DNA of 64,000 nt, taken from Trichocoleus sp. FACHB-46. Its GTDB lineage: Bacteria; Cyanobacteriota; Cyanobacteriia; FACHB-46. The stretch spans positions 1 through 64,000 of the forward strand of contig NZ_JACJOD010000011.1 of NCBI RefSeq assembly GCF_014695385.1, read 5' to 3'. The notes beneath the pieces were generated by a model. That model was not told where the DNA came from. It did no database searches and worked only from the letters and a program-made list of their open reading frames with translations. The position numbers were made by a program, and so were the translations under genes. Positions 9,023-29,480 of this stretch are shown in pieces. How positions within the stretch are numbered: position 1 is the stretch's first letter; each line of letters opens with the position of its first letter.

Positions 9023-9626
9023 TGCAGTTACCTCGTTTAATCAGTTGCTGAGTCAAGTGATTTTTTAGCTGTAGTTTGGTTTCTTTCGAGAAACTAACTA
9101 GCTTTTTAACTATTTGTTAAACTATGTAAATCTAGCCATAAATAACTCTGTCGAAATATGGATCAAGCACTAGTCTGTCAGTTGCGTCTTAGGTGGGACG
9201 GCACTTTGGCGATCGCCTAACCAAGCTCCAAAGAACCTTCAGATCCGGTACCTAGCTTGATTAAGAGATCTCAGTAGCAAGGATTATGCCAACTTCATGA
9301 ATTTAGAGTAGACTCATCTCATTTCAAGCCAAATATTGTTAGTAAAAGTGTGATCTCTGCCTAATCGGAAAGTAGTGTGTAACCACGAACCAAGAAGGTA
9401 GGATCAATTAATTTCATCACTATTAAGACGCATAAAAGTTTGTCAGGCTCTACTGATTAGAAGGGCAGCCTAGTGTAAATAGCTGCTATATCAGCAAGCA
9501 GCGATCGCTAGCTAAACCGGGATTTGCCTAGAGTTAGGCCCTGACCCTAAGCTGGTTTGAGCAAAAACTCATGGATGAGTGCACCTAGCTGACTTGCTTA
9601 CTTACAGAATTGCGAGAGGAAATCCT
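9023..9626. other. Intergenic region, divergent promoters presumed
   Basis: About 600 bases between the divergent DUF2945 and second pentapeptide-repeat genes. No supported gene, hairpin terminator or RNA was recognised. The DNA is relatively AT-rich just upstream of 9022. Confidence 0.4.
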
Positions 9627-10436
9627 ATGGATGCCGCTGAACTGCTGAAACGTTATGCAGCAGGGGAAAGAAATTTTCAAGATGTCAACTTGATGCGAGC
9701 ATCTTTGAGCGAGGTCAACCTTTGCGGGGTAGATTTGACAGGAGCGAACTTATTCGAAGCCAACTTAAGTGGTGCCAACTTGGGAGGAGCGAATTTGAGT
9801 CAAGCCAACTTAACGAATGCGACTCTGATTGGTGCCAACTTGATTCGGGTCAACTTTCGCGAAGCTAGCTTGAAGGGAGCGCAGTCGGGTGAAGCCAACT
9901 TTCGAGGTGCCATTCTGCAAAATACCAATTTGAGTGAAGCCAATATGGGCGGCGCTAGCTTAATTGAGGCAGATTTGCATGAAGCGAATCTTAGCCGCAC
10001 CAAGCTAGTGGAAGCAGCACTCAACGGCTCCAACCTGAGCAATACCAACATGACTCACGTCAACCTCAGTCGTGCCTGCTTAGACCGTGCCAATCTCGCT
10101 CATAGTATTTTGACCGGTGCCATTTTAGACGCGGCAAAACTTAGTGAAGTGAATTTGAGCAAAGCAGATTTGACAGGAGCGAATCTTCGAGTGGCCCAGC
10201 TGAAGCAGGCAAACCTCAGAAATGCCAACTTGAGTTGGGCCACTCTCCGGGGTGCCAACTTAAGTAACGTTAACTTGTATCGCGCCAACCTCAGCTGGAC
10301 AAACTTAACTGAAGCGACCTTAACAGATGCCATGTTGATGGATGCCAACCTGAGACGGGCAACGTTAATTGACACAGACCTAAAAAACGCTAATTTGAGT
10401 GGAGCCGTGATGCCTGATGGCACGATTCACAACTAG
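9627..10436 (+). CDS. Pentapeptide-repeat protein 2
   Basis: A 269-residue protein starting at ATG 9627 (MDAAELLKRYAAGERNF) with GAGAGGA six bases upstream. An earlier in-frame TTG lacks a site. After the shared head motif come about 45 consecutive A(N/D)LXX-type pentapeptides with no interruption by another domain, ending LSGAVMPDGTIHN. It is a close relative of the genes at 7601 and 11619 and is likely a paralogue made by duplication. It is predicted to be cytoplasmic, since no signal peptide is present. The biochemical role is unknown. Confidence 0.92.
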   Translation: MDAAELLKRYAAGERNFQDVNLMRASLSEVNLCGVDLTGANLFEANLSGANLGGANLSQANLTNATLIGANLIRVNFREASLKGAQSGEANFRGAILQNTNLSEANMGGASLIEADLHEANLSRTKLVEAALNGSNLSNTNMTHVNLSRACLDRANLAHSILTGAILDAAKLSEVNLSKADLTGANLRVAQLKQANLRNANLSWATLRGANLSNVNLYRANLSWTNLTEATLTDAMLMDANLRRATLIDTDLKNANLSGAVMPDGTIHN

Positions 10437-10626
10437 ATAAAGCTTTGTGCTAATAGGCGTTAATTCAGTGTAGCTAAGTCAATTTACCTAACTGAACAGT
10501 AGTATTTTGGGTGTTTCCTAAAGCGGAAAGGTTATAACAGTGGAGGTCGCTTGCTGGCAGCGTAGAAGAAATCGTGAGCTAGCAAACGGTTAGAAGTGAA
10601 ACGCTTGAAGCAGGAGTCTTGCCCCC

Positions 10627-11436
10627 ATGAAAGGGATCGCGATCGCAGCACTTTTTTCGTCAGCGTTCCTCTTACCTCCGCCCCAGGTGAAGGCCATTGA
10701 GCTGAAAGCTTTACCGCAACTTGCAGTTTCTACCTCCATTGCTCAGGTTGCCTATCCTGCCACTCCTTTGGTGAATGCTCCACGCAACATTACAGTGTTG
10801 GGACAAGGACAGGTAACGGCTCCAGCAGATATAGCTCGGCTGGAGATTCAAGTAATCACTCGCAATCCGTTTGGTGCCGATGCAGGAGCGCCAAATCAGT
10901 TGGCAGTGGGTAATCGACCGCTACAACCTGCGGTCCTACAACCTGTAGTCACAGCGCTACAAGCCATCGGTGTTCCAGCGGAGGCTGTCACAGTGCAAGT
11001 AACTTCTAGCGAAAGCGCTGACGTAATTGTTTTGCTCGAAAAGCCAACTCGTCCCCGGGTCCAAGAAGTGGTTTTAACCGCGAACAATGCAGCCCAGAAG
11101 ACCAATCGTCTTGCCGTTCAAAGCATTGGGGCGGAGTATGCTGTCAAAAACTGTAAGCCTTTAGAAAATGCTTCCCGGCGAGCCGCTTTAAGCGATGCCC
11201 AAGAGCGTCTGCGAGCTTTAGCAACAGCGGTGCGAGTTCGGCTCGGAGCCGTTTTGCAAATTACAGAATTGCCTGTCCTAGGATCGCCGTCTGCTTTTTC
11301 TAAATGCGGTTCTAAGGTGGGGGGGCCTGCCAATCCTCTCAGTCCTCCCAGTACAGGTGCGCCTCCCTACGATCCTGCGGCCTCTACAGAGGTAAGAGTT
11401 TTAAGCCAGATCAGCATCACTTACACAATTGAGTGA
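10627..11436 (+). CDS. SIMPL-domain (DUF541) exported protein
   Basis: A 269-residue protein. Residues 1-23 (MKGIAIAALFSSAFLLPPPQVKA) form a signal peptide with a KA cleavage region. The SIMPL/DUF541 signature begins with RNITVLGQGQVTAPADIARLEIQV and ends with the beta-rich EVRVLSQISITYTIE. Family members such as YggE/BP26 are periplasmic or outer-envelope oligomers linked to stress; the biochemical activity is unclear. It lies between two pentapeptide-repeat genes, all on the plus strand, but gaps of about 180-190 bases argue for separate promoters. A GC-rich Pro/Gly loop (GGPANPLSPPSTGAPP) near residues 235-250 is lineage-specific. Confidence 0.88.
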   Translation: MKGIAIAALFSSAFLLPPPQVKAIELKALPQLAVSTSIAQVAYPATPLVNAPRNITVLGQGQVTAPADIARLEIQVITRNPFGADAGAPNQLAVGNRPLQPAVLQPVVTALQAIGVPAEAVTVQVTSSESADVIVLLEKPTRPRVQEVVLTANNAAQKTNRLAVQSIGAEYAVKNCKPLENASRRAALSDAQERLRALATAVRVRLGAVLQITELPVLGSPSAFSKCGSKVGGPANPLSPPSTGAPPYDPAASTEVRVLSQISITYTIE

Positions 11437-11618
11437 TTTCAGGCACTAGCCTTGTTAGACAGCTTTGCTCAAAATTTGCTCAAACTCAGGTGAGCTAGCA
11501 CTCAAAGATGTTGAAGCTGTATAACACTTTGTGTCAATAGATACATTCGTTTTGAACTTGTTTTTGGTTTGGGCAGTTTAAACCTATTACCCGCCCAGAG
11601 CGATCGCGAGGCCATAGT

Positions 11619-12608
11619 ATGAATGCGGATGAATTACTGAAACGTTATGCAGCAGGGGAAAGAGACTTTAGTGGCCTCAATCTGATTGGAGTAAACCTGG
11701 AAAGAGCAAATCTGGCAGGTGCTAACTTTACAGGTGCCTCGTTTGCGTCTGCCAACTTGAGTCGGGCTTCCTTGACGGGTGCAAACTTAGATGGGGCATT
11801 TTTCTATTCAGCAGATTTGAGTTTCGCCAAACTGGGGTACACCCGATTAACGAATGCAGACTTAACCAAAGCCAATCTCAAGGGGGCGTTTCTGGTTAAA
11901 GCAGACTTAACAGGCGCTAAAGTGAGCGGAGCAATCCTGGCAGCAGTTAACTTACGAGCCGCTAACTTACAAGAAGTAAACCTCTGTGGAGCCGATTTGC
12001 GAAATATCAATCTTCGCTCCGCTAATCTCAGCAAGGCAAATCTTAGCTGGGCTAACTTGACCGGGGCACGGCTGAGTGGCGCTTCTCTCAATGGTGCGTT
12101 ACTAAATGGCGTCAAACTCAGTGCTGCCTTTTTGAATGGTGTGGATTTGAATGGGATTGACTTAGATGGCGTGAATTTAAGTGCTGCCAAGCTAGGCGGA
12201 GCCAATCTGAATGGAGCCACCCTCACAGCTGCAAACTTGAGTGCAACCCAATTACGAGTTGCGAGTTTGATTCGAGTGAACTTACATGCCGCTAATTTGA
12301 GCGAAGCCGATTTACGCCGAGCCAACTTAAGCGAAGCAACTCTGAGTAAAGCAGACCTCAGTGCTGCGGATTTGACTGAAGCAGACTTAACGGGCGCAAA
12401 CCTGAATGCAGCGAATCTCTGCGAAGCCAACTTAACCGCAGCTAGTTTTTACCGCGCTTACCTCTGGGGGGCTAAGCTGATGCAAGCAAACCTGTGGCAA
12501 ACTAACCTGGCAGAAGCGAGCCTCCGAGGAGCAGATATCGCTGATACCAACGAAGATGAGGCAATTCTAGTGGGAGCCACCATGCCCGATGGCAGCTTGT
12601 ACCGCTAA
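11619..12608 (+). CDS. Pentapeptide-repeat protein 3
   Basis: The largest of the three relatives, at 329 residues. It starts MNADELLKRYAAGERDF at ATG 11619 and is followed by some 55 A(N/D)LXX repeats. A central stretch (about residues 155-200) is Gly/Val-rich with DGVNL-type repeats in place of AN/AD. The tail ATMPDGSLYR matches the tails of the other two. No signal peptide or transmembrane segment is visible. The shared head (LLKRYAAGER) and tail (MP-DG) flanking a variable number of coils show that these genes vary by gain or loss of coils. Function unknown. Confidence 0.92.
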   Translation: MNADELLKRYAAGERDFSGLNLIGVNLERANLAGANFTGASFASANLSRASLTGANLDGAFFYSADLSFAKLGYTRLTNADLTKANLKGAFLVKADLTGAKVSGAILAAVNLRAANLQEVNLCGADLRNINLRSANLSKANLSWANLTGARLSGASLNGALLNGVKLSAAFLNGVDLNGIDLDGVNLSAAKLGGANLNGATLTAANLSATQLRVASLIRVNLHAANLSEADLRRANLSEATLSKADLSAADLTEADLTGANLNAANLCEANLTAASFYRAYLWGAKLMQANLWQTNLAEASLRGADIADTNEDEAILVGATMPDGSLYR

Positions 12609-16103: not shown

Positions 16104-19100
16104 TTATGCATGGCTCCCACTGCCTGCAATCAAAACTTCACCTTTTAGCATGCGTTGAGCGGCATCTAGTAAAGCTTCTTCTAAGTAAGGTTTGGTGAAG
16201 TAGCCCTTGGCACCGAGCTGGACAGCCATCTGTCTATGGCGATCAGCACCCCGTGAGGTGAGCATCGCGATCGGGATGTGGTTGAGGGTGGAATCCTTCT
16301 GAATGCGAGATAGCAGCTCTAGGCCGTCCATTCTAGGCATTTCAATGTCGCAGAACACCATATCGCAGGGCAAGCCAGAGCGCAGTTTTTCCCAAGCTTC
16401 TTGACCATCACGCGCTTGTTCAACTCGGTAACCCACTTTGTTGAACGTCATGGACAACAGCTCACGCACTGTAATCGAGTCATCCACAATCAGAACCGTC
16501 GGGTCAGTTTTGGCAACGGCTTCCGCTACAGGAGGTTCAGCGTTTTGATCCCATAGCGTCGTGCTAGCTTCTCGGCGAATCCGACCCATAGACAGGTCGA
16601 TCAGCTCTAAAACGTCCGCGATCGGCATAATCCGACCATCCCCTAGAACTGTCGCACCAGCAACCCCAATTGGTTTAGGGACAGGGCCTTCAAGTTGCTT
16701 AATTACAATTTCTTGCTCGCCCAAGACCTGATCGACCTGCAAAGCAATGAAGTTGCCAGCACTACGAAGCACCACAATGGAGACGATGTCATCTTCTTGG
16801 TTACCGCCGTAGACGCTACCACGACCGAGATAACGGTTGTATTTGAGAATGTCAGATAACGGTCGGAAGGGCAGCAGCAAATCGCGCCATAGAATACAGG
16901 GTTGTCCATCAGGATTAGCTTGAATCCGCTCCTTGGGCACATCTAGCATGTCTTCTACCCCATCCATCGGAAAGGCAATGCGAGCCCGATTACTGATGCA
17001 GCAGAGAGCTTTGGAAATGCTCAGGGTAAGGGGAAGGCGAATAGTAAACGTCGTTCCCTTCGCGACGGCAGAGTCAGTAGTGATGGCACCACGAATCTCA
17101 CCTAAGCTAGTGCGGACGACGTCCATGCCGACTCCACGGCCTGCGTAGTCAGTGACTTGATCCTTGGTCGTGAAACCGGGATGGAATAGTAAGTCATAAA
17201 CGTCCAAGCGCGAGAGAGTCCTGGCCTCTGCGGGCGTAACCAGACGTTTCTCGATCGCCTTTGTTTTCACTCGATCTGGATCAACTCCTGCCCCATCATC
17301 CGAGACAGAAATCACTGTTTGGTTCCCCTGGTGGAAGGCCCGGATCGTAATGCGACCGATAGGTGGCTTGCCTGCCGCTTGCCGTACATCTGGCGTTTCA
17401 ATCCCGTGGGCGATCGCGTTATTGACCAAGTGAGTCATGGGGTCATAAAGCTGCTCCAAAATCATCTTGTCGATTAAGGTTTCTCGACCTTCGACATGCA
17501 GCTCAGCCTGCTTGCCACACTTGAGGGCAATATCTCGCACTGCTCGCGGCAAGCGATCGGCAATTTGGGCGAAGGGAACCATTCGGGAGCGAGTCAGACC
17601 TTCTTGTAGTTGAGTCGTCACCTGCCGGAACATCCGAGTGACCTGATCGGTTTCATCCACGATGAATTCGATGTCAGAAGCAGACTCTCGAACTCGGACA
17701 ATCAACTCGATCATCTCTTGAGACAAGGTATGGAACCCAGTAAAGCGGTCCATCTCTAGGGCATCGAAGCTGGCTCCTGTGGAGTGGCTGTTCTGGGCAT
17801 CACCATTGGTACCATGTACCGGGGCATGATGACTTTGGCGGCTGGCTAAGAGTGAGCTTTCCAGCAGCGATCGCTCGTACAGGTCACGCATCCGCTGCCC
17901 AACATCGCTGAGTTGCTGCACTTGATAAAGCAAATTATCCAGGAACTGCCGCAACCGTTCTTGGTCTTGCTCCAAGCTATTCCGATTGACCACTAGTTCC
18001 CCAACCAAGTTGCTGAGGTTATCTAAGTGCTTAACCGGAACCCGCATCGTTTGCTCAGCAAAACCTGCTCCACCTCGACGCCCTGGCCGACGGTTAGCCT
18101 GAGGAGCAGCACCGCGGCTCGTTTTAACGGTTGGAGGACCACCCAAGGTTTTGTCAGCATCCTCTAGAAGCTTCTCTAAATCATCGAATTCACCGTCAAA
18201 AGCTCCAGCACCACTGGCAGTAGCACTAAACGCAGACGCTCCTAGCCCATTAACAGAACCAAAAGATTCTTCGTCCAGCAACGCTTCCAATCCTGAAAAG
18301 TCCGCGTCGTCTTTGCCTATCTCTGAGATGGAGGGTGGCGCAGCAAAATCATCCTCACTCAGTAAAGCTTCGAGGTCATCAAAGTTATCGAGAGAATCAG
18401 CGGGCGCTGTATTGCGCTCAAAGTTACCGTCAAAGCCATCTTCCTCACTAGCGATCGCTAGGAAGTCATCTAAGTCAGAGCCACCAACATCGGCAGTATC
18501 GACGCTAGCTTGAGCTTGACCCAAATCTAACCCATCGGAAAAATCATCCGTTGAATCTAGAGCAAATAAATCAAAGTCATTGAGATCTGCTGCTTCGGAA
18601 TCCTCTAGGCCAAAGCTGATATCCGTCACGTCCGCAGCTTCTGGAACTGCATCTGTTCCTAAATCAAACAGATCGAGATCAACCTCATCAAGGTCAAAGC
18701 TTGATTCTGTGGTCAGGTTTGGTGCTGATTCAGTGCTAGTAGTGACATCGTCTTCCAAGCCGAGTTCTGCATCAACCTCTGTAAAGGCATCTCCAAGCTC
18801 AGTCGTTTCCGCAACAGGTAAGCCAGAGAGGTCTAGCGCATCAAAGCCGAATTCATCAGTTGATTCAGTGGTGGGGGAGTCAGCAAAAAGATCGACCGCT
18901 TCCTCCTGTGCTGTATCGACGCTTTCCGTTTGGAAGAAGTCCCCAAACTCATCGCTGTTATCAGAGGCTAGGTCAGGGCCTACCTCAGAAGTGATAGCTG
19001 CATCAGCCTCATCTGCATCAAAGCCTTCAAGCCAACTTTCGGAATCTATGTTCTCAGAAATGCTGGCTTCGCTGAGGCTATCTGATGTTTGTTCGTCAAA

Positions 19101-22100
19101 CAGATCCACTTCACTGAGGCTATCTGACTCTTCTTCGTCAAACAAACTTGCTTCACTGAGGTTATCGGAGGTTTCTTCGCCATCGAATAAGCCTCCTAAC
19201 GCTAAGTCGTCGCCAAAATCTAGTTCGCTCTCAGCACCTAGAGATGGTTCTACAGGCGCTAGAGACTCGGTTAGATCAAGCTCAGAATCATCCAGTAAGC
19301 TATCGAATCCTAACTCGCTTTCGTCCAGGCTAGTTTCAGGAGTGTCTAAGTCAAAGGCGAAATCAGCCTCTGAAGATTCATCAAGCTCAACATTGGATAA
19401 AACATCAAGTTGAGTGTGATTGCTTTCAGAATCTAGGTTAAGAGCTAGTTCGTCGTCAAAATTCAACTCATCAGAAGTGTCTGCCACTGACTCAAAACTA
19501 AAGTCTTCAGTCGGTTCTGGGGCTTCAGTCGGTAAGCTATCTAAGGAGAAATCATCAAAGCTACCCAAGTCGAGAGCGATCGCCTCTACCCCTGCCTCAG
19601 GCTCCGAAGGCTCATCAAACAAGTCTCCTAGATCTGCTGCTGGAGTGAGTTCGTCACCAAAATCCAACTCATCCGAAGTGTCAGCCGCTGGCTCAAAACT
19701 AAAGTCTTCAGTTGCTTCGGGCACTGACGCAAAACTAAAGTCTTCAGTTGCTTCTGGGGCTTCAGTCGGCAAGCTATCTAACGAGAAATCATCAAAGCTA
19801 CCCAAGTCGAGAGCGATCGCCTCTACCTCAGGTTCTGAAGGCTCATCGAACAAGTCTCCTAGATCTGCTGCTGGAGTGAGTTCGTCGCCAAAATCCAACT
19901 CATCTGAAGTGTCAGCCGCTGGCTCAAAACTAAAGTCTTCAGGTGCTTCGGGCACTGACTCAAAACTAAAGTCTTCAGTTGGTTCTGGGACTTCAGTCGG
20001 TAAGCTATCTAACGAGAAATCATCAAAGCTACCCAAGTCGAGAGCGATCGCCTCTACCTCAGGTTCCGAAGGCTCATCGAACAAGTCTCCTAGATCTGCT
20101 GCTGGAGTGAGTTCGTCGCCAAAATCCAACTCATCTGAAGTGTCAACCGCTGACTCAAAACTAAAGTCTTCAAAGGCAGATGTTTCCTCAGTAGGCAAGC
20201 TATCTAGTAGCAATTCATTTGAGGGATCATTCAGCCCACCAAAGTCTGAGTTGGCATCTCTCGCCTCTAGAGACTCACTCATGAAGTCTTCTAAATCACC
20301 TAAATCAGCATTGGATTCTACTGTTTCCGGTGACAAGTCCTCATCAAAAAGCGAGGGTTCTGCCACTGTGGTTTCAGAAACTTCATTCAAGCTTGCGGCA
20401 GGCTCTGGCATCCAAGATTCATCAGCCTCATCAGCTCCCATGAGGTCAAAGTCGAGCTCGTCTGCGCTGGTGTTTAATTCGTCTGCATCAGTGGTGAGAT
20501 CAGCAAAATTAGCTTCTACCGAAAAGTCAGCTAGTGGATCGTCAGCGGAGCCACCTAAGTCAGCCGTTTCTTCTAGGTTTAGCGCTGCCAAATCGGTTTC
20601 GCCTGGTACGGCTTCAGGCCACAGGTCTGTAGCTTCAGAGCTGGCTAACTCAAAATCAAATTCTTCAGGAGTGACACCGAATTCGCTGGATTCGGTGAGG
20701 AGATCGGCTAGCTCGGCATCATCTGCAAAAGATTCTGCCAACCCAAGATCATCAACGCTTTCGGTAGCTGCAATTGGTGTAGCGAGTGATAGCTCCTCTA
20801 GATCAATCCCAGATGACAAATCGTCTCCCCAGAGGTCGTTAGTTTCATCACTGCTCAGGTCAAAGCCCAGATCGTCACTGCGATCGCTCAGCTCAGAGTC
20901 AGCCAATAAGTCTGCAAACTCGGCATCATCAGTAGGTTCTTCTAGGAGTAACGATTCGTCAAGCTCACTGTTGAGATCAGTGTCTGCTACCACCTCCTGG
21001 AGGTCTGTCTGATCGAAAGCTTCTGAACTCCACAGGTCTAAGGATTCATCTGCACCAAGAGCTAGGTTTAGCTCGTCGCTTGTATTGCGATCGCTAACCT
21101 CAGTCAACGACCAGTCAGATGAGGCGGCACTGTCGGTCAGTTCTTCTAACAGAAGCTCTTCATCAGCATCTGGAGCGAGAGTGAATGCCTCTTCAGAATT
21201 CTCAGTTTCTAGATCAAAATCAAGACTTTCTAACTGCTCAGCGATCGCAAAGGGATCTTCTCCGTCAGCTCTCGTTGCTTCAGGAGTCGTTAATAGATCC
21301 TCATTTAAATCTAAAGCGTCTAAGTTCCAACTCGCTTCAGGCTCAGAATTGCCACCTGTCAGTCCTTGTTCCTCCCAAGGATCGGCGATCGCAGCCACAG
21401 GCTCCTCGGAAGCCAGGTCTAGTACTGGTGTATTCGCATCAACATCAGGTTCATCTCCCTCGTTAGAGGAAGTGGCGAACAAATCATCTAAATCAGCTTC
21501 TGCTGACGTTTCCAAGGAAAAATCTAGGCTTTCTGGCTCAGCCGCTAAGTCTGCCTCTGCCAGTGATAGATCGAATGGAGTGTCATCTACCTCGCCCATG
21601 GGAGCGTCTAACCAAGAAGTCCCAGGCTCGGCTGAGTCGGTTGTCTCCTCTGACCAGAGGTCATCTGACACATTGTCTTGATCATCGCTGGCTACGAACA
21701 GGTCAGCTGCATCTAGAGAGGAAGGTTCCTCGGAGACACCAAATAAATCAGTCAGATCTGCCTCATCTTCAGCTAGAATCCCTGGTTCTAAATCGCTAGG
21801 AGATTCCTCACCAAACAGTCCAATAGATTCTGAACCCTCTAAAGCGGCCTCTAGCTCTGCATCAGGCTCAAAGGTTGGCTCAGCGCTGAAGAAATCAGGT
21901 TCGCTATCACCCAGCCCCTCAAGAGAGGTTTCTGGGGCGGGCTCATTGAAGAAATCAGTGAAATCATCTGAAATAGTCGCGTTAGTCAGCTCCTCAGAAG
22001 AAGTTTCTAGAGAGAGTAGCTCGCTTTCATCAGACTCAGTAAATAAGTCAGGGAACTCTCCCAACTCGTCAGAAGGAACCTCAACGACAATCTCATCAGC

Positions 22101-23780
22101 AACAACTTCAAATTCGGATAACTCAAAGCTTGACTCAGATAGTTCAAAGGCTAAGTTGTCTGCTGAGGTATCTATAGAGTCTTCTACTGCTTCTACACCG
22201 AGACTATTGAAAGCAGCATCGTCTGATTCAAGATCTCCGAAAAAGTCTAGATCAGGTTGCTCTTCAGCTTGGTCTTCAAAGGTGATCGCTGCCGCAGAAT
22301 CCAGTGAGGCATCAGTGAAATCTTCTAAGCCTTGGAAATCTAAAGATTCATCATTGAGCAAGTCATCACTGCCAAACAAGCTAGCGAGGTCATCTCCTCC
22401 CCTGGCCTTAGAACTTGAATTCCCAGAACTCTCTGCATCAAAAAGTAAATCTGAGAAATCATCTGAGTTGACATCGCTTTCTAGAGAACCATCTGCTGAC
22501 TCAGCAGTCTCTCTGATAATTTCTTCTTCCTGCCAAGTCACGCCTAAATCAAGAACTTCCCCTTCAAACAGATCGGCCAAGCTGTTTAGCTCCGCCATTC
22601 CTACCTCAGGGCCATTGCGATCGCCTGTAGCCTGCTCAGCCGTAACCAAGTCTGCGTTGAGGTCGGAGGATAAATCTAAACCGAGGTCTGCGTCGCTAGT
22701 GACTGCATCTGGTTCTAGGGCAGGGCTGCTAAACCAATCCTCAAGCCCATCTGACGGACTATCTTCAGTGAGGTCTACAGCAAAAATGTCATCAGCAGTA
22801 GGCTCTTCTGCCGTTTCAAATAAATCGAAGGCTTCAGTCAGAGACTCTTCCGGCTCATTAGTGAGTTCAAAGAGATCCCCAGCCAGAAGGTCATCAAATG
22901 TAGGTTCTGTTGCAGCTTCGGCGGCGGAAATAGGCACTAGAACGGTCAGAGCGTCCCCAGCTAAAATTGTCGCTGCTTGGTTAGCTAGAACCAACTCCTG
23001 TGCTTTTTTGATTTCTTTGATGACAATGGGAGCTAGAGTTCGGTAGGCATTATCAGGGCAGGCGATCGCTTGACGAGACACCTCAAGCAAGTTACACCAA
23101 TTCGGCAAATCGAATGGTTCACCTAGTTGACCCAAGCTACGGCAAAGGTCTTGCAGTTGTTTTCGATTCTCTGAGCTTTCCGACTGCTTGAACAACTGCA
23201 ACATCTCGCGTAAGCGGGTTGGCACATCGCTTTGAAAAAGCAATAGCAACGCACTCTCTTCTTGATGCAGAGGAGCCGCTGCAACTGGCGTTGGGATTGT
23301 TTCAACCACAACCGGGATAAAGCTAGACCCTTCTTCGACTGGAATTACACCGCCCGCTTGAGTGATCAGTCCTTCCAAGTGATTGGTGAGCTCGGTAAAG
23401 ATCGGCTCAATGCCTGACATGATACCGTTAGCAATATCTTCAGTCAGACCAAAAGGTCCTTGAAGTTGCTCTAGGAGTTCGTGCAGAGTATCGAACACCC
23501 TAAGAAACAAAGATTCTAATTTTTGATCAACTTTGATGGGGCACTCTTTTAAGAGTTTGAAGCAATCCTCTAGACGGTGCGAAACCTGCTGAATGCTATT
23601 GATTCCTAGCATGGCTGCTCCGCCTTTGACAGAGTGAGCCGCTCGGAAGACTTCATTCACCATTTCCGAGTCTTCGATGGTGCTTTGCAGATTCAGCAAA
23701 CCTTGCTCAATGGTGTTGAGGTGGTCTTTGGCCTCCTCAATGAAGTAACCCATGATCCGCTGCTGTTGTTCTGACTGCAT
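16104..23780 (-). CDS. hmpE: Giant CheA-type hybrid histidine kinase
   Basis: A 2558-residue kinase at the end of the chemotaxis-like operon, homologous to PixL/HmpE. An Hpt domain (about 1-130) has phospho-accepting His49 in AAHSVKGGAAML. A second helical module spans about 180-270. Residues from about 300 to 1850 form an extremely long acidic, Ser/Asp/Glu/Leu/Phe-rich low-complexity linker, including 77-residue near-identical tandem units. The CheA core follows: dimerisation helices from about 1885 (VKHLDNLSNLVGELVVNR), an ATPase with NNAIAHGIE, DDGAGVD and GRGVGMDVV, then a CheW-like domain to about 2410. The C-terminal receiver carries Asp2478 in FCDIEMPRMDG. It should take signals from HmpD through HmpC and phosphorylate HmpB and HmpA, steering type IV pilus motility. 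The linker is far longer than in CheA homologues I know. Confidence 0.93.
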   Translation of the reverse strand: MQSEQQQRIMGYFIEEAKDHLNTIEQGLLNLQSTIEDSEMVNEVFRAAHSVKGGAAMLGINSIQQVSHRLEDCFKLLKECPIKVDQKLESLFLRVFDTLHELLEQLQGPFGLTEDIANGIMSGIEPIFTELTNHLEGLITQAGGVIPVEEGSSFIPVVVETIPTPVAAAPLHQEESALLLLFQSDVPTRLREMLQLFKQSESSENRKQLQDLCRSLGQLGEPFDLPNWCNLLEVSRQAIACPDNAYRTLAPIVIKEIKKAQELVLANQAATILAGDALTVLVPISAAEAATEPTFDDLLAGDLFELTNEPEESLTEAFDLFETAEEPTADDIFAVDLTEDSPSDGLEDWFSSPALEPDAVTSDADLGLDLSSDLNADLVTAEQATGDRNGPEVGMAELNSLADLFEGEVLDLGVTWQEEEIIRETAESADGSLESDVNSDDFSDLLFDAESSGNSSSKARGGDDLASLFGSDDLLNDESLDFQGLEDFTDASLDSAAAITFEDQAEEQPDLDFFGDLESDDAAFNSLGVEAVEDSIDTSADNLAFELSESSFELSEFEVVADEIVVEVPSDELGEFPDLFTESDESELLSLETSSEELTNATISDDFTDFFNEPAPETSLEGLGDSEPDFFSAEPTFEPDAELEAALEGSESIGLFGEESPSDLEPGILAEDEADLTDLFGVSEEPSSLDAADLFVASDDQDNVSDDLWSEETTDSAEPGTSWLDAPMGEVDDTPFDLSLAEADLAAEPESLDFSLETSAEADLDDLFATSSNEGDEPDVDANTPVLDLASEEPVAAIADPWEEQGLTGGNSEPEASWNLDALDLNEDLLTTPEATRADGEDPFAIAEQLESLDFDLETENSEEAFTLAPDADEELLLEELTDSAASSDWSLTEVSDRNTSDELNLALGADESLDLWSSEAFDQTDLQEVVADTDLNSELDESLLLEEPTDDAEFADLLADSELSDRSDDLGFDLSSDETNDLWGDDLSSGIDLEELSLATPIAATESVDDLGLAESFADDAELADLLTESSEFGVTPEEFDFELASSEATDLWPEAVPGETDLAALNLEETADLGGSADDPLADFSVEANFADLTTDADELNTSADELDFDLMGADEADESWMPEPAASLNEVSETTVAEPSLFDEDLSPETVESNADLGDLEDFMSESLEARDANSDFGGLNDPSNELLLDSLPTEETSAFEDFSFESAVDTSDELDFGDELTPAADLGDLFDEPSEPEVEAIALDLGSFDDFSLDSLPTEVPEPTEDFSFESVPEAPEDFSFEPAADTSDELDFGDELTPAADLGDLFDEPSEPEVEAIALDLGSFDDFSLDSLPTEAPEATEDFSFASVPEATEDFSFEPAADTSDELDFGDELTPAADLGDLFDEPSEPEAGVEAIALDLGSFDDFSLDSLPTEAPEPTEDFSFESVADTSDELNFDDELALNLDSESNHTQLDVLSNVELDESSEADFAFDLDTPETSLDESELGFDSLLDDSELDLTESLAPVEPSLGAESELDFGDDLALGGLFDGEETSDNLSEASLFDEEESDSLSEVDLFDEQTSDSLSEASISENIDSESWLEGFDADEADAAITSEVGPDLASDNSDEFGDFFQTESVDTAQEEAVDLFADSPTTESTDEFGFDALDLSGLPVAETTELGDAFTEVDAELGLEDDVTTSTESAPNLTTESSFDLDEVDLDLFDLGTDAVPEAADVTDISFGLEDSEAADLNDFDLFALDSTDDFSDGLDLGQAQASVDTADVGGSDLDDFLAIASEEDGFDGNFERNTAPADSLDNFDDLEALLSEDDFAAPPSISEIGKDDADFSGLEALLDEESFGSVNGLGASAFSATASGAGAFDGEFDDLEKLLEDADKTLGGPPTVKTSRGAAPQANRRPGRRGGAGFAEQTMRVPVKHLDNLSNLVGELVVNRNSLEQDQERLRQFLDNLLYQVQQLSDVGQRMRDLYERSLLESSLLASRQSHHAPVHGTNGDAQNSHSTGASFDALEMDRFTGFHTLSQEMIELIVRVRESASDIEFIVDETDQVTRMFRQVTTQLQEGLTRSRMVPFAQIADRLPRAVRDIALKCGKQAELHVEGRETLIDKMILEQLYDPMTHLVNNAIAHGIETPDVRQAAGKPPIGRITIRAFHQGNQTVISVSDDGAGVDPDRVKTKAIEKRLVTPAEARTLSRLDVYDLLFHPGFTTKDQVTDYAGRGVGMDVVRTSLGEIRGAITTDSAVAKGTTFTIRLPLTLSISKALCCISNRARIAFPMDGVEDMLDVPKERIQANPDGQPCILWRDLLLPFRPLSDILKYNRYLGRGSVYGGNQEDDIVSIVVLRSAGNFIALQVDQVLGEQEIVIKQLEGPVPKPIGVAGATVLGDGRIMPIADVLELIDLSMGRIRREASTTLWDQNAEPPVAEAVAKTDPTVLIVDDSITVRELLSMTFNKVGYRVEQARDGQEAWEKLRSGLPCDMVFCDIEMPRMDGLELLSRIQKDSTLNHIPIAMLTSRGADRHRQMAVQLGAKGYFTKPYLEEALLDAAQRMLKGEVLIAGSGSHA
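19465..20180. repeat. In-frame 231-bp tandem repeats within hmpE
   Basis: The anchor string AAGTCTCCTAGATCTGCTGC starts at 19621, 19852 and 20083, an exact period of 231 bases (77 codons). A partial extra unit lies on the low-coordinate side. Encoded units contain TSDELDFGDELTPAADLG, LFDEPSEPE and LGSFDDFSLDSLP. Nucleotide identity between units is very high, so amplification is recent or maintained by gene conversion. Confidence 0.9.
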
Positions 23781-24068: not shown

Positions 24069-27026
24069 TTACTGCCGCTCCCCAGCCTCTACACGGAACC
24101 GTTCTACGGAAGTTAAGAGGTCGCGCGCAACTCCTACTAAGTTTTGTAGAGAACCCGAAACTCTTTGAGCTTCCTGAGAGGTTTCTTGTGCGGTTAATTC
24201 AACCGACTGCATTACCTGAGCGACCGCTCTCGAAGTTTCAGTCTGCTCTACCGTATCGGCAGTAATGGAACGGACAAGGGCATCAATGCGGTTAGACACT
24301 TGAATGATGTCTTCGAGCGATCGCTTCGCTTGTTCTGCTAAGCGAGTCCCCTCAATTACCTGTTGAGTTCCTTCTTCCATTGCTGTCATTACGGAGCCTG
24401 TCTCGCTCTGAATTTGCAGCACGATCTGCTCAATTTCCTTCGAAGCTTTCGCGGCCCTGTCTGCGAGCTGTCGGACTTCATCAGCCACAATGGCGAAACC
24501 ACGTCCAGCCTCACCTGCTCTCGCTGCCTCAATACTAGCGTTAAGTGCTAGCAGGTTGGTACGAGAAGCAATTTGGGAAATTAACGCCACAATTTTTGAG
24601 ATTTCTTGTGACGACTCGGCCAGCCGCTTTACCTTTCGGGTGGTTTCTGCCACTGTTTCGCGGATCTTGAGAATACCGGAAACCGTGCTTTCTACAGCCT
24701 CACCTCCTTTGAGCGCTGTCGCAGAGGCTGAGCGAGCCACCTCTTCCGCTTGGCGGGCACTTTCAGCTACCCGTTGAATGGAATCGGTCATGACCTGGAC
24801 AGAATTGAGGGTGACCGCTAACTCTTCTGCTTGCCGCAAAGCGTCAGACGATAAGCTGCGAGCGAACATTTCACTGTCGGAAGCGCCTTTGTTCACTTGT
24901 CGGGCAGCCAACTTCACCTGTTGCACAATCTCGCGCAGGTTTTGAATCGTTAAGTTAAACGAATCTGCCACTGCTCCCAGTACGTCAGCGGTGACTTCTG
25001 CCTGAACTGTTAAGTCGCCTCGCGCCGCCCCTTCCACGTCATCTAGGAGGCGAATTACTTGGCGTTGTAGGTCTTCTTTGGCTTGCTCTTGCTCTTCTGC
25101 CTTCCGTTGCGCCTCACTTGTAGTCGTGAGGATCACCCGTGCCATTTGGTTAAAGCCAGCGGCTAATTGGCCAAACTCATCTTCTGAATAGACCGAAGCC
25201 CGAGCATCTAAATTCCCTTGAGAGACCGCTTGAAATTGAGCTTGCAAGTTATCAGTTGCTCGCTGAATTTGATTGGCGGTTTTGCGCCCCATAAAGTAAG
25301 CGACACCACCGCTAGTGACACCAGCCACAACAGCCATGATTAGACCCGTTTGTCGCAAGCTAGCGATGACTTCAGGCCGCTTTTGCTCTACGGCACCCCG
25401 CGCTGCCACCCAACTAACAGTTGCCACTGCTAAAGCCGAAATCACTCCCACTGCACCCGCTGTGATCAAGTGCTTGGTTTTAAGCGAGGCGTTGTCTAAG
25501 AACGACAACATTCCCTGCTCGGAGGTGACGGTAGGCTCTACGTTGAGGCTATCACTTTGGGTGAAGATGGGGACTTGCTCAGAGTTGCCAGCAATCCCAA
25601 ATACTTCATCGTCTCGAATAATGGAGCGATCGCCGCTATCGCTGAAATCAACTTCTCCCATATTGGAAAAGCTCAGTCCTGCGCCTGCCTCTGGGGCAGC
25701 GCTCTCGTGGCCGCGACGGCTATTTAAGCCGGAAACTGTACCACCCATGCCTCCAAAAGCAGCTGAGCCGACCGAAGGACTAGTGAAACCCGCAGAGCTT
25801 TCAGAGATATCAAAGTCAGGTAGGTTGCCTAGATCATCAAATTCATCGAACTCATCTAGAAAGTCGATGCTGCTCTGGCGTCCACCTGCTTCACTAGAGG
25901 AGCCTCCGGTCACAGGAGATTCTGGATCTGAGAAGGCGTCGTCAAAGGTGCTAACGTTGTTGTCTTGGGCGTCAAAGCCGTTCCAGTTGGAAGATGAGAC
26001 GAAAGTTTGCTCATCTTGCTCGTAGTTGCTGGAGTTGTAGCCAGTTGAATCTAAGTCTGTGTAGCCAAAATTATCAGCATTAAAGTCATCTAGTTCCTCA
26101 TCAGCCATGAAGAGAGTTTCGTCTTCTCTCAAAGGAGGATTGGAGCTGTATGAACTATTGGCAGAAATGTTGCCGCCAGGGAAAGAGTCTAAAGCCGATG
26201 GGCGATCGCTAGGGAGGCTTTCCTCCTCAGCCGCATACAACTGAGCATCTGGACTCAGATCATCTTCTGGAAAATCTAGGGGTTGAAAGACATCGTCAAA
26301 CTGATCGAGCGATGCATCAAACTCACTCTGCCCCAAACTAGAGTCGTGGCCAAAGGGCGAAAACTCCTGGGAAGTCCCAGATTGAGATTGCGGATGAGTT
26401 CCTGGATCTTGAGCATCTAGATATTCGTCAAAGGCAAATGGATCGGCAGTATTGTCTAAAGGCTCAGAACTTGCATAAGAACTATTAGCAAATGGATCGG
26501 AGAACGGTGTTGCTGTCGCAGGCGTATCAACAGGCTCATCAAAAGCCATTGGCATTTCTGTCAAACCCAAGCCAGAGTCAAAATCGTCGAAGCTTTCTAA
26601 CTCAGCATTGTTAAAGTCAAAGGCGGGTTCTTCTTGGGCATTCCAGCTTTCTGCGGCTCCATAGTCAGAGCCACCTGAAAAACTATCTAGCTCTTGAACA
26701 TTAGGAGAGCCATCAGCCAAATTAGCTGCTGAAGCGGCTCCTGCATCCGCATCAGATTCGTTAGTGTAGGCCAATCCACTATTCGCGTAGTCAATAAATT
26801 CAGGATCAGAGGTCAAGCCCAGCACCCGTTGATATTGCTCGCGCGCCACATCATACTGCTGGAGTCCGTAGCAGTAAATATGACCCTTTAGAAGATGGAC
26901 ACTGGGGTCATCAGGAAAGTCTTGAGCCAGGCGATCGACAATCGCCGCTGCCTCTTCATAACTGCCCTGATAATATGCCTTCTGGGCTTGTTGATAGTCT
27001 TGCGCGTACTCAGTGCTGGATGCCAT
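24069..27026 (-). CDS. hmpD: Methyl-accepting chemotaxis protein with N-terminal TPR and no periplasmic domain
   Basis: A 985-residue receptor, homologous by position to PixJ/HmpD. Residues 1-90 contain TPR-like repeats ([23 protein letters not shown]). Residues 90-510 are an acidic low-complexity linker with FDDF/FDEFDDL motifs. Two hydrophobic segments follow at about 520-543 and 560-580, separated by only some 16 residues, so no periplasmic sensor fits between them. Two HAMP-like regions run about 580-710. The MCP signalling domain (about 740-980) has the conserved tip [20 protein letters not shown]. No GAF or bilin-binding domain is present, unlike PixJ1 of Synechocystis, so direct light sensing is not supported. 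It should pass signals to HmpC and HmpE. The gap to hmpE is 288 bases. Confidence 0.92.
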
Positions 27027-27151: not shown

Positions 27152-27682
27152 TCATGCTGCCCACCGCGCTGATCGAAGAATTGCAATTTGATCGAGTAGT
27201 CGGAGCAATTTGTCGTCTTTATTGTCCGTCATCCATTCGCCCCGCAAAAACGGAGCCATACTATCCGGAACATTCGCTGGCATCTGTACCTCGTCAATGT
27301 CTAGCCAATCCATGCCCACAATTCGATCAACTGCTAACCCTAACATGGTGTCTTGATCTTCGACTGCAATGACAGGAATCTCTGGTCTATCTGTATTGAG
27401 AGGATTAGCATCGCCTAGAAATTGGCCTAAATCAGCCACCCAAATAACGCGCCCACGTACATTCAGCGTACCCAAAAGCAAAGGGGAAACGTTCGGAATG
27501 GGAGTGATCCGATCCGGCGAAGGTGAAATAACTTCCCGAATTCCTGTAGCAGGTAGAGCAAACTCGTTGCCTGAAGATACATAGAATCTTAGGTGCAACT
27601 CACCTTCAGGACTTTCTAATTCCTGAAATTCTGGAGCTTGGTCTTGGCCTCTACCTGTTAAAAAATCTGGGTTCCCAACCAT
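27152..27682 (-). CDS. hmpC: CheW-like adaptor protein
   Basis: A 176-residue CheW-domain protein (PixI/HmpC position). After a 30-residue leader the domain begins with LRFYVSSGNEFALPATGIREVI. The family core follows: PNVSPLLLGTLNVRGRVIWVADLGQFLG, then VDRIVGMDWLDIDEV. It should link the MCP HmpD to the kinase HmpE in a membrane-associated array. It starts ten bases after the hmpB stop, so the two are translationally close, and it ends 125 bases before hmpD. Length is normal for cyanobacterial CheW proteins of this type. Confidence 0.92.
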   Translation of the reverse strand: MVGNPDFLTGRGQDQAPEFQELESPEGELHLRFYVSSGNEFALPATGIREVISPSPDRITPIPNVSPLLLGTLNVRGRVIWVADLGQFLGDANPLNTDRPEIPVIAVEDQDTMLGLAVDRIVGMDWLDIDEVQMPANVPDSMAPFLRGEWMTDNKDDKLLRLLDQIAILRSARWAA

Positions 27683-27692
27683 TCACGCCTAC

Positions 27693-28058
27693 CTATCCTC
27701 GTAGCAGCTGTTTGACTGTTCCAACTAACTCTGTGGGTTGAAAGGGCTTCGCAATATAAGCATCTGCACCTTGTTTCATGCCCCAGTAGCGATCGAACTC
27801 CTCACCTTTGGAAGAGCACATCACTACAGGCACATTTTGGGTTTTGGGATCTGCTTTCAAACGACGACAAACCTCATACCCGTTCATGCGAGGCATCACA
27901 ATATCCAAGACCACTAAGTCAGGGCAATGTGCTTGGATGCGCTCTAACGCCTCTACCCCATCGCTAGCTACAGTAACAGTTAGGCCACTTCCTTTGAGAA
28001 GGTCTGTGATCATCTCCCGTTGCGTGACACTATCTTCCACAACTAGAACTGTACTCAT
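27693..28058 (-). CDS. hmpB: CheY-like single-domain response regulator
   Basis: A 121-residue stand-alone receiver domain (PixH/HmpB position). I start at ATG 28058 (MSTVLVVEDS), where GGGTGG precedes and the receiver begins at once; an upstream ATG adds eight residues. Acidic pocket residues EDS lie at the N-terminus. The phospho-accepting Asp52 is in VLDIVMPRMNG, Ser in MCSSKG, and the conserved Lys in IAKPFQP. The likely role is output or phosphate sink for HmpE in the motility path. It sits between hmpA (144-base gap) and hmpC (10-base gap). Confidence 0.93.
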   Translation of the reverse strand: MSTVLVVEDSVTQREMITDLLKGSGLTVTVASDGVEALERIQAHCPDLVVLDIVMPRMNGYEVCRRLKADPKTQNVPVVMCSSKGEEFDRYWGMKQGADAYIAKPFQPTELVGTVKQLLRG

Positions 28059-28202
28059 AACCACCCTACCTGCTAACTGCAATGGTTAACGGGAAAGATC
28101 GACCGCGTACACTCTTAAACTTAATCTTTAGATTTGTGTTAGTCACCTTAATCCTTGATTTTTAGAATAATCACTAATTAATCACTAAAATACCCTCAAT
28201 GC

Positions 28203-29480
28203 TTAACTAAAAGGCGCTGAGGAAGCAGAAGCTGGATCGCCAAGGTCAATTTCTAACTCATCTTCTAGCGCATCAGCAAGCAGCCTGTCTGGTTTGGGGC
28301 GATCGGGGTCGCCTGAGCCAGCATACTTTTCTACTAGCATGAGTAACTCGTTTTCACCGAATGGTTTGGTCAGGTAGTCAGTCGCCCCGACCATACGAGC
28401 CTTGACCCGATCAATAAATCCGTCTTTCCCAGTCAACATCACAATAGGAGTTTGCCGGAAAGCCGTTGATTTGCGTAGCATGGCACAAATTTCGTAACCA
28501 TCCAACTCCGGCATAGCAATATCACAAAGAATTAGATCTGGCTTGAGTTGAAATACTAAGCTCAGTGCTTTAAGAGGATTCCCAATGGATGTAACTTCAT
28601 AACCATGTTGACTTAACATGTACTCCACAGTTTTACGAATGCTTGCCCCATCGTCGATACAAACCACTCTGGGAGTTCGAGCCATCTGTAGGGAAAACGG
28701 CTGCTTGCTAGCAATTGTTTCTTTGGAGATGGGATATAGCAGTTGTACTAGCCCCTGCTGCACGTAGGGGTAAATAGCTCTGGCAACAGTGAGAATATCT
28801 CGGTTGAGATAACGGGCCATCTGTCGGACTGAAGTTTTGCCATCTGCCCAGCGGTGCAGGCTGTTGAAGGCGTTTTCCGGCAAAGCCTCTTGTAGCTGCT
28901 TGGCATCAGCAATGATCGGACATTGATCAGGTGATTGAATGTGAGGGTGAAACTGTTTCCACTCTTGGACTTGCTTCATGATCTTGGCCACCAGCGGATT
29001 AATCTCCAGAGTGGTGAGTTGAGGAGACAAAGCGGAGCCAATTTCGAAAATAAATGAACCTTGATGGAGACTCAGCAAGTCGAAAAGTGTTTCATGCACC
29101 ATGCTCTGAATGATGCTACGTCCCTGAGCAGGTGTTAAAACATGATTTTCTAGCAGTGCCCATAAGTAGCCATACTCAGGGGCGTTGATCGCAGCAACCG
29201 AGGGGACGGTGACGTTATCGAGTGCGGCTTCTACTTTGTAGCGACGGAGATAGTCACGCAGGCGAAGTAAACTGTCATCCCCTTCTGCGGCATAGACAAT
29301 TTGGCCATTGAGAAAAAAGACAAACCAAGACTGGGTAGATAGCGATCGCCCGAGACGATCACTGCTGAGCAGGCTTGGCAGAGAACCATAGGCTTCAACA
29401 CAAAGCTCACCCGTTCTTTGACCTAGCTCAATCAGTTGTAGAATGCTGCGGATGTCTATCTCGTTTAACTTGCCTTGCAT
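28203..29480 (-). CDS. hmpA: PatA-type response regulator (PATAN/DUF4388 plus receiver)
   Basis: A 425-residue regulator homologous to PixG/HmpA, first gene of the minus-strand operon. Residues 1-250 form the PATAN (DUF4388) region: MQGKLNEIDIRSILQLIELG at the start, then a winged-helix-like segment (ADGKTSVRQMARYLNRDILTVARAIYPYV). A receiver domain spans about 270-390 with Asp320 in LCDIAMPELDG and Lys in LTKPFGENE. PATAN proteins are known in cyanobacteria for binding motility or filament partners such as the pilus motor region. The C-terminal 35 residues are acidic. The promoter for the whole operon should lie in the 1-kb divergent region upstream. Confidence 0.93.
   Translation of the reverse strand: MQGKLNEIDIRSILQLIELGQRTGELCVEAYGSLPSLLSSDRLGRSLSTQSWFVFFLNGQIVYAAEGDDSLLRLRDYLRRYKVEAALDNVTVPSVAAINAPEYGYLWALLENHVLTPAQGRSIIQSMVHETLFDLLSLHQGSFIFEIGSALSPQLTTLEINPLVAKIMKQVQEWKQFHPHIQSPDQCPIIADAKQLQEALPENAFNSLHRWADGKTSVRQMARYLNRDILTVARAIYPYVQQGLVQLLYPISKETIASKQPFSLQMARTPRVVCIDDGASIRKTVEYMLSQHGYEVTSIGNPLKALSLVFQLKPDLILCDIAMPELDGYEICAMLRKSTAFRQTPIVMLTGKDGFIDRVKARMVGATDYLTKPFGENELLMLVEKYAGSGDPDRPKPDRLLADALEDELEIDLGDPASASSAPFS

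Follow-up and report, generated by a model that had tools for sequence, protein, structure and literature searches.

The locus described here raises the question of what is gained by a CheA kinase that carries a very long, acidic sequence between its Hpt domain and its catalytic core. The gene lies in a 64,000-nucleotide stretch of Trichocoleus sp. FACHB-46 (contig NZ_JACJOD010000011.1, positions 1 to 64,000; hereafter, the window), and its product belongs to the PilL/HmpE type. Cyanobacterial type IV pilus steering, that is, phototaxis and hormogonium motility, runs through this kinase, and a need for it in motility has been established only for the Synechocystis and Nostoc relatives.

The kinase gene, its operon and its linker

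The gene occupies positions 16104-23780 of the minus strand as a single open reading frame that starts with ATG and encodes 2,558 residues. The Pfam search identified an Hpt (P1) domain (aa 9-107, 23460-23756, minus strand as all the features of this gene), a long dimerization domain (17583-18056) with the H-kinase_dim match at aa 1909-1965 and two helices of 70 and 60 residues in the AF2 model, HATPase_c (aa 2115-2252, 17025-17438), a CheW-like domain (aa 2259-2395, 16596-17006), and a C-terminal receiver domain, REC (aa 2429-2541, 16158-16496). This is the domain order of a CheA histidine kinase; His49, in the sequence AAHSVKGG, is the phospho-acceptor of the Hpt domain, and the C-terminal receiver is the hybrid feature of the cyanobacterial PilL/HmpE proteins. 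The first-pass annotation had called the product a CheA kinase, and the domain order and His49 bear this out. Between the Hpt and the dimerization domain Pfam recognized no P2 (CheY-binding) domain, which is found in many CheA proteins, though not in all, and is not a required domain. The Hpt is followed by a segment without Pfam match (aa 108-283, 22932-23459) that is kept in the orthologues, and of which aa 161-283 gave no match at E<=10.

Upstream of the kinase gene, and on the same strand, are found a pilJ-type MCP gene (24069-27026) whose product includes a TPR, an acidic disordered segment, a TM region, HAMP and the MCP signalling domain, and, assigned by Pfam, a pilI-type CheW (27152-27682), a pilH-type CheY (27693-28082), and a pilG-type regulator with DUF4388 (PATAN) and a receiver (28203-29480). 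The operon order is thus pilG-pilH-pilI-pilJ-pilL (tax3, hmp), with pilL in the last place as in the PilL/HmpE loci; the MCP gene is in the expected position at nearly all the orthologous loci. From its domains and neighbors, the predicted product is confirmed as a PilL/HmpE-type CheA of the type IV pilus system. The other CheA kinases of this genome are much shorter (frames of 978, 865, and 829 aa). Elsewhere in the window (9579-12608, plus strand), a protein that looks secreted lies between two ORFs with many five-residue repeats of the A(N/D)L type, which are pentapeptide-repeat-like.

Given that the conserved segment without Pfam match follows the Hpt, the disordered part begins at approximately aa 284, with a first acidic stretch (aa 284-384, 22629-22931), and it extends to about aa 1896, that is, 1,613 residues. 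Asp and Glu account for 30.8% of its composition, Lys and Arg for 0.9%, and Phe, Trp and Tyr for 7.3%; Cys is absent, and the charge-hydropathy criterion places the linker among disordered sequences. The central spacer was assessed by composition, and the AF2 models cover the juxta-kinase part and PilJ. The vast acidic disordered linker that had been proposed on first reading is therefore correct in extent and character. A folded domain hidden in it was rejected, given that Pfam at E<=10 gave nothing beyond one chance match. An assembly artefact, which had been raised as a possible refutation, was ruled out by a congener genome assembled as a single contig that has a gene of the same length class (2,488 aa). 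The ORFs found on the plus strand opposite to the linker (18151-21681; Ser/Lys-rich frames that start with TTG and reach 530 aa) are probably mirror frames of the Asp/Glu codons, and as genes they were rejected from the sequence alone.

Distribution, growth and evolution of the linker

Of 386 genomes from the phylum, 214 yielded relatives with an N-terminal query. All the 59 fused orthologues, window included, have an acidic linker (D/E 18-33%) of 128 to 1,729 aa, with a median of 835, although these orthologues are not phylogenetically independent. An acidic linker is also present in 67 complete named-genome entries, a set that overlaps with the former since it includes partly the same assemblies, with lengths from 423 aa in Planktothrix rubescens to 1,757 aa in Elainella sp. 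Prado103. The linker of the window is in the upper tail of this range and it is not alone there: in two congeners the linker has 1,533 and 1,528 aa. Hence the idea that it is unusually long for a CheA homologue does not hold within this kinase family, and the comparison of lengths across homologues that had been suggested as a check reveals that a long linker is kept in the closest relatives. As judged from these genes, the acidic linker is a constant and characteristic feature of this kinase among cyanobacteria. Neither a clear orthologue nor a CheA-borne copy of the C-terminal conserved motif described below (island B) was found in 12 genomes of the same phylum outside the class. In Nostoc carneum NIES-2107, a complete PilL with a linker of 1,193 aa is located on a plasmid record (plasmid1; L195).

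The first-pass annotation also called attention to short repeated motifs in the linker. DLGDLFDEPSEPE (aa 1229, 1306, and 1383) and FDDFSLDSLP (aa 1252, 1329, and 1408) are indeed present in three copies each, within a tandem repeat of three units of 231 bp, or 77 aa (19485-20172, minus strand; 94% matches). Both congeners lack the extra copies, and these motifs are therefore recent duplicates, the result of a tandem triplication at the species level, and were discarded as conserved sites. The 231-bp unit includes GCGATCGC, the HIP1 octamer that is common in cyanobacteria and that may help recombination between the copies. Tandem arrays (period 18 or more) were observed in 56 of 125 orthologue linker entries, and since the period is divisible by three in all 112 arrays, the linker region must be translated; these arrays indicate that the linkers generally lengthen, and also shorten, through tandem duplication in frame.

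Most of the linker is a fast-evolving acidic spacer (aa 426-1796, 18393-22505, minus strand) in which Phe/Trp and Asp/Glu recur at even intervals. The congeners share 58% identity in the linker and 97% in the kinase; in the closer pair dN/dS is 0.27 for the linker and 0.013 for the kinase, and dS approaches saturation in the more distant pairs. The residues do not change at the same rate: W (.83), L (.77), F (.76), D (.73), and E (.71) are kept between congeners, while A (.51), S (.48), T (.38), and N (.28) drift and Val is also poorly kept; Phe, Asp, and Glu are well kept despite having few synonymous codons. Changes of E to K amount to zero in the comparisons of the window with its congeners (about 1,420 aligned sites), versus 37-39 changes between A and T, and to two in the closer pair. 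In addition, the aromatic residues are spread more evenly than in shuffled sequences (z -3.7, a sign shared by 92% of 120), and the same is true for the acidic residues; evenly spaced and conserved aromatic stickers are the pattern of a sticker-and-spacer sequence. Because D, E, F, W, and L are kept, because E-to-K changes are absent when the window is compared with its congeners, and because the spacing is even, these substitution patterns indicate that the spacer is under selection for acidity and for dispersed Phe, Trp, and Leu, and not for an exact sequence. The earlier suggestion of many weak binding sites is thus favored as regards the conserved, evenly spaced Phe, Trp, and Leu, but not as regards the repeats that it named.

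Two conserved islands and the free Hpt proteins

When windows of 40 residues were projected onto the orthologues, only two places of the linker were found to be strongly conserved. Island A (aa 385-425, 22506-22628, minus strand), with the sequence GPEVGxAELNxLADLFEGExPDLxxTWQEEE, is present in 54 of the 59 fused orthologues and in 1 of 12 orthologues of the solo-Hpt type, in which the kinase has no Hpt; it is missing from the shortest linkers, and in 13 genomes it gives one strong match per genome, in the PilL gene only.

Island B came from an unbiased scan for gapped patterns, in which F.DL, L..LF, and DL..L ranked with the most enriched ones. It consists of one to five copies of a predicted amphipathic FxDLExLL helix placed just before the dimerization domain, with the last copy 21-45 aa ahead of it in 61 of 71 genes; in about 10 of the 71 it is absent or diverged. 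The strict motif F.DL..L[FL] occurs 94 times versus 0.9 expected from shuffled sequences, and is enriched in 43 of the 59 orthologues; in each genome the strong matches are essentially restricted to the PilL gene. An island B peptide reads FDDLEKLLEDADKTLGG. The copies in the window are FDDLEALLS (aa 1800-1808, 18357-18383), the variant FSGLEALL (aa 1829-1836, 18273-18296), and EFDDLEKLLEDADKTL (aa 1864-1879, 18144-18191), all on the minus strand. In the AF2 model three short helices coincide with these copies over a background of pLDDT<50, the confidence of the helices being modest (block means about 52-73). Between island B and the dimerization domain there is a basic patch (aa 1886-1902, 18075-18125, minus strand), with a mean of 5.6 K/R per 30 aa versus 0.6 in the remaining linker for 126 fused orthologue entries. 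Matches of both islands to PDB profiles were rejected as short chance matches. Islands A and B look like docking sites and are considered here as candidates for this role.

One set of cyanobacteria has a PilL without a usable Hpt of its own, together with a free Hpt protein, the split pilL arrangement known in Synechocystis (PMC7656254). An acidic N-terminal arm of 246-644 aa is kept in 12 of 12 of these Hpt-less kinases; most of them keep island B, and island A is lost. According to this distribution, island A travels with the Hpt module and island B with the kinase. In a tree of Hpt regions, the free Hpt proteins of the genomes with Hpt-less PilL form one clade (support 100/100), nested inside the group of free Hpt paralogues found in other genomes alongside a fused PilL. 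The simplest reading of this tree would be that the Hpt was lost from PilL and an existing free Hpt took over, and that the gene was not split, so that in the textbook split pilL a free paralogue would have replaced the Hpt. The genome of the window itself carries a free Hpt of the serving clade (G000:C31:12712-13497, L086) that is 51% identical to the PilL N-terminus. Genomes with Hpt-less PilL also contain CheA-like frames of 2,013-2,462 aa (L111, L112, L113, and L114) with 1,341-1,794 aa of mixed charge ahead of the kinase and a second Hpt-like match inside; these represent a different giant CheA type.

A possible recruitment arm and its alternatives

We propose, with a probability of roughly one half, that the linker is the disordered recruitment arm of the kinase module in the chemosensory array of the type IV pilus. 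Islands A and B would be the docking motifs, and the acidic spacer would keep them soluble and accessible. Most likely, island B would stand in for the absent P2 domain by keeping the Hpt, free or tethered, and/or the PilG receiver close to the catalytic core. In a more specific version, island B would be a short linear motif, present one to five times within disordered sequence, that takes the place of the folded P2 in docking these partners; this would have made the covalent Hpt dispensable and allowed the takeover by a free one. This version is tentative, and we hold it to be possible rather than probable.

Two-hybrid assays in Synechocystis bear on this proposal. Removal of 360 N-terminal residues of Hik43 (PilL-C) abolished its binding to Hik36 (Hpt) and to Rre6 (PilG), and removal of 614 C-terminal residues did not; the N-terminal deletion takes out the dimerization domain too, and the authors assigned the effect to this domain (PMC7656254). 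As judged from the orthologous genes and not from Slr0322, the acidic arm and island B should be lost in this deletion as well. It has been reported as well that the hik36 and hik43 deletions have different pilus phenotypes (PMC7656254), which implies that the Hpt and kinase modules do not act only together.

The MCP of the operon could contribute to the same surface. PilJ has an N-terminal TPR together with an acidic, aromatic-rich disordered segment (25527-26741, minus strand, for both). The segment, of 244-834 aa, has its own conserved motif, which ends in (L/I)P (25812-25856, minus strand, approximate bounds). With both proteins, the edge of the array would be an acidic brush with specific docking points. 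The TPR was considered as the acceptor of the motifs; its fold resembles the TPRs of Tah1 and CHIP, but by eye it does not have their carboxylate-clamp residues and it is not basic, and in the AF2 model of PilJ its own motif is not docked in any ordered way.

Among the other roles that could be envisaged, a length tether, suggested on first reading, would let one Hpt reach many response regulators or neighboring kinases of the array, and with 1,613 aa the r.m.s. end-to-end distance is predicted at about 46 nm, which would span several array units. However, in a Gaussian-chain model the effective Hpt concentration falls from about 0.5 mM at 128 aa to about 6 uM at 1,613 aa, little better than a free protein, so that docking would be required for very long linkers to work efficiently. 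Linker length varies from 128 to 1,757 aa, and because the acidic arm persists in kinases whose Hpt is a free protein, tethering the Hpt cannot be its conserved role; we consider the tether quite improbable. The instability of this length, together with the tandem arrays and the low identity between congeners, would instead suit a spacer that is mostly drift, a repeat-driven bloat tolerated in an unconstrained linker in which only the islands work. This seems very improbable, given that the residue-specific conservation of D, E, F, W, and L, the lack of E-to-K changes between the window and its congeners, and the even spacing point to selection on bulk properties.

The same stickers, evenly spaced and under selection, would be expected if the acidic linkers of PilL and PilJ formed or tuned a phase-separated array compartment, and the basic patch that adjoins the acidic arm would fit as well. 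Nevertheless, a strong net negative charge disfavors self-association, and the linker of PopZ, of similar charge, raises the saturation concentration when it is lengthened (PMC9512792). In the PilL family, unlike in PopZ, the longer linkers are more acidic (Spearman 0.39 with D/E). A role in driving condensates, as the first-pass annotation had put forward, or in modulating them is judged unlikely. The fixed position of island B and of the basic patch, directly before the dimerization domain, could also reflect autoregulation, with island B or the arm docking on the own ATPase, Hpt or basic patch to restrain the kinase; the variable copy number and spacing of island B argue against it, and we regard it as improbable.

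The analysis yields two short motifs that can be tested and a bulk-property rule (acidic, with evenly spaced Phe, Trp, and Leu). A survey of CheA architectures described the long dimerization helices of the cyanobacterial Tfp CheA; it does not discuss disorder, and linkers come up in it a single time, in connection with E. coli and Thermotoga (PMC10782961). In the literature searched, which lies outside subscription journals, no description of the acidic arm or of islands A and B was found, and the largest part of PilL appears to be undescribed there.

In its folded parts, the kinase matches the cyanobacterial PilL/HmpE proteins (tax3/pilG cluster; Hik36-Hik43 in Synechocystis), with the same gene order and Hpt-dimerization-HATPase-CheW-REC domains, and with long dimerization helices as in the cyanobacterial Tfp CheA (PMC10782961). 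ChpA of the Pseudomonas Pil-Chp system, which also belongs to type IV pili, is likewise a large hybrid CheA that ends in a receiver, but it reaches its size through nine or more folded phosphotransfer domains (PMC12632253), whereas the bulk of PilL is one disordered stretch and Pfam recognizes one Hpt. The P2 domain of CheA and the LID of the Vibrio CheA are also partner-recruiting regions, for CheY and ParP, respectively (PMC10782961, PMC5706961); in PilL the putative recruitment would depend on short helical motifs in disorder and not on a folded domain. The CheY-binding N-terminal helix of FliM includes QAEIDALL, which resembles FxDLEALL (shuffle p 0.02); this is a lead only, given that it lacks the Phe, scores 2.1 bits versus a minimum of 11.4 for real instances, and FliM was not found by the island B profile; the resemblance to FliM/CheZ is weak. 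The closest parallel in bulk properties is the PopZ linker, also acidic and disordered, with a net charge per residue of -0.28 versus -0.30 in PilL and a composition that is conserved while the sequence is not (PMC9512792). The PopZ linker, however, is proline-rich and of conserved length (78 aa), whereas the linkers of the PilL family are Phe/Leu-rich, carry islands, and provide, from 128 to 1,757 aa, a natural length series for the role of disorder in a chemosensory array.
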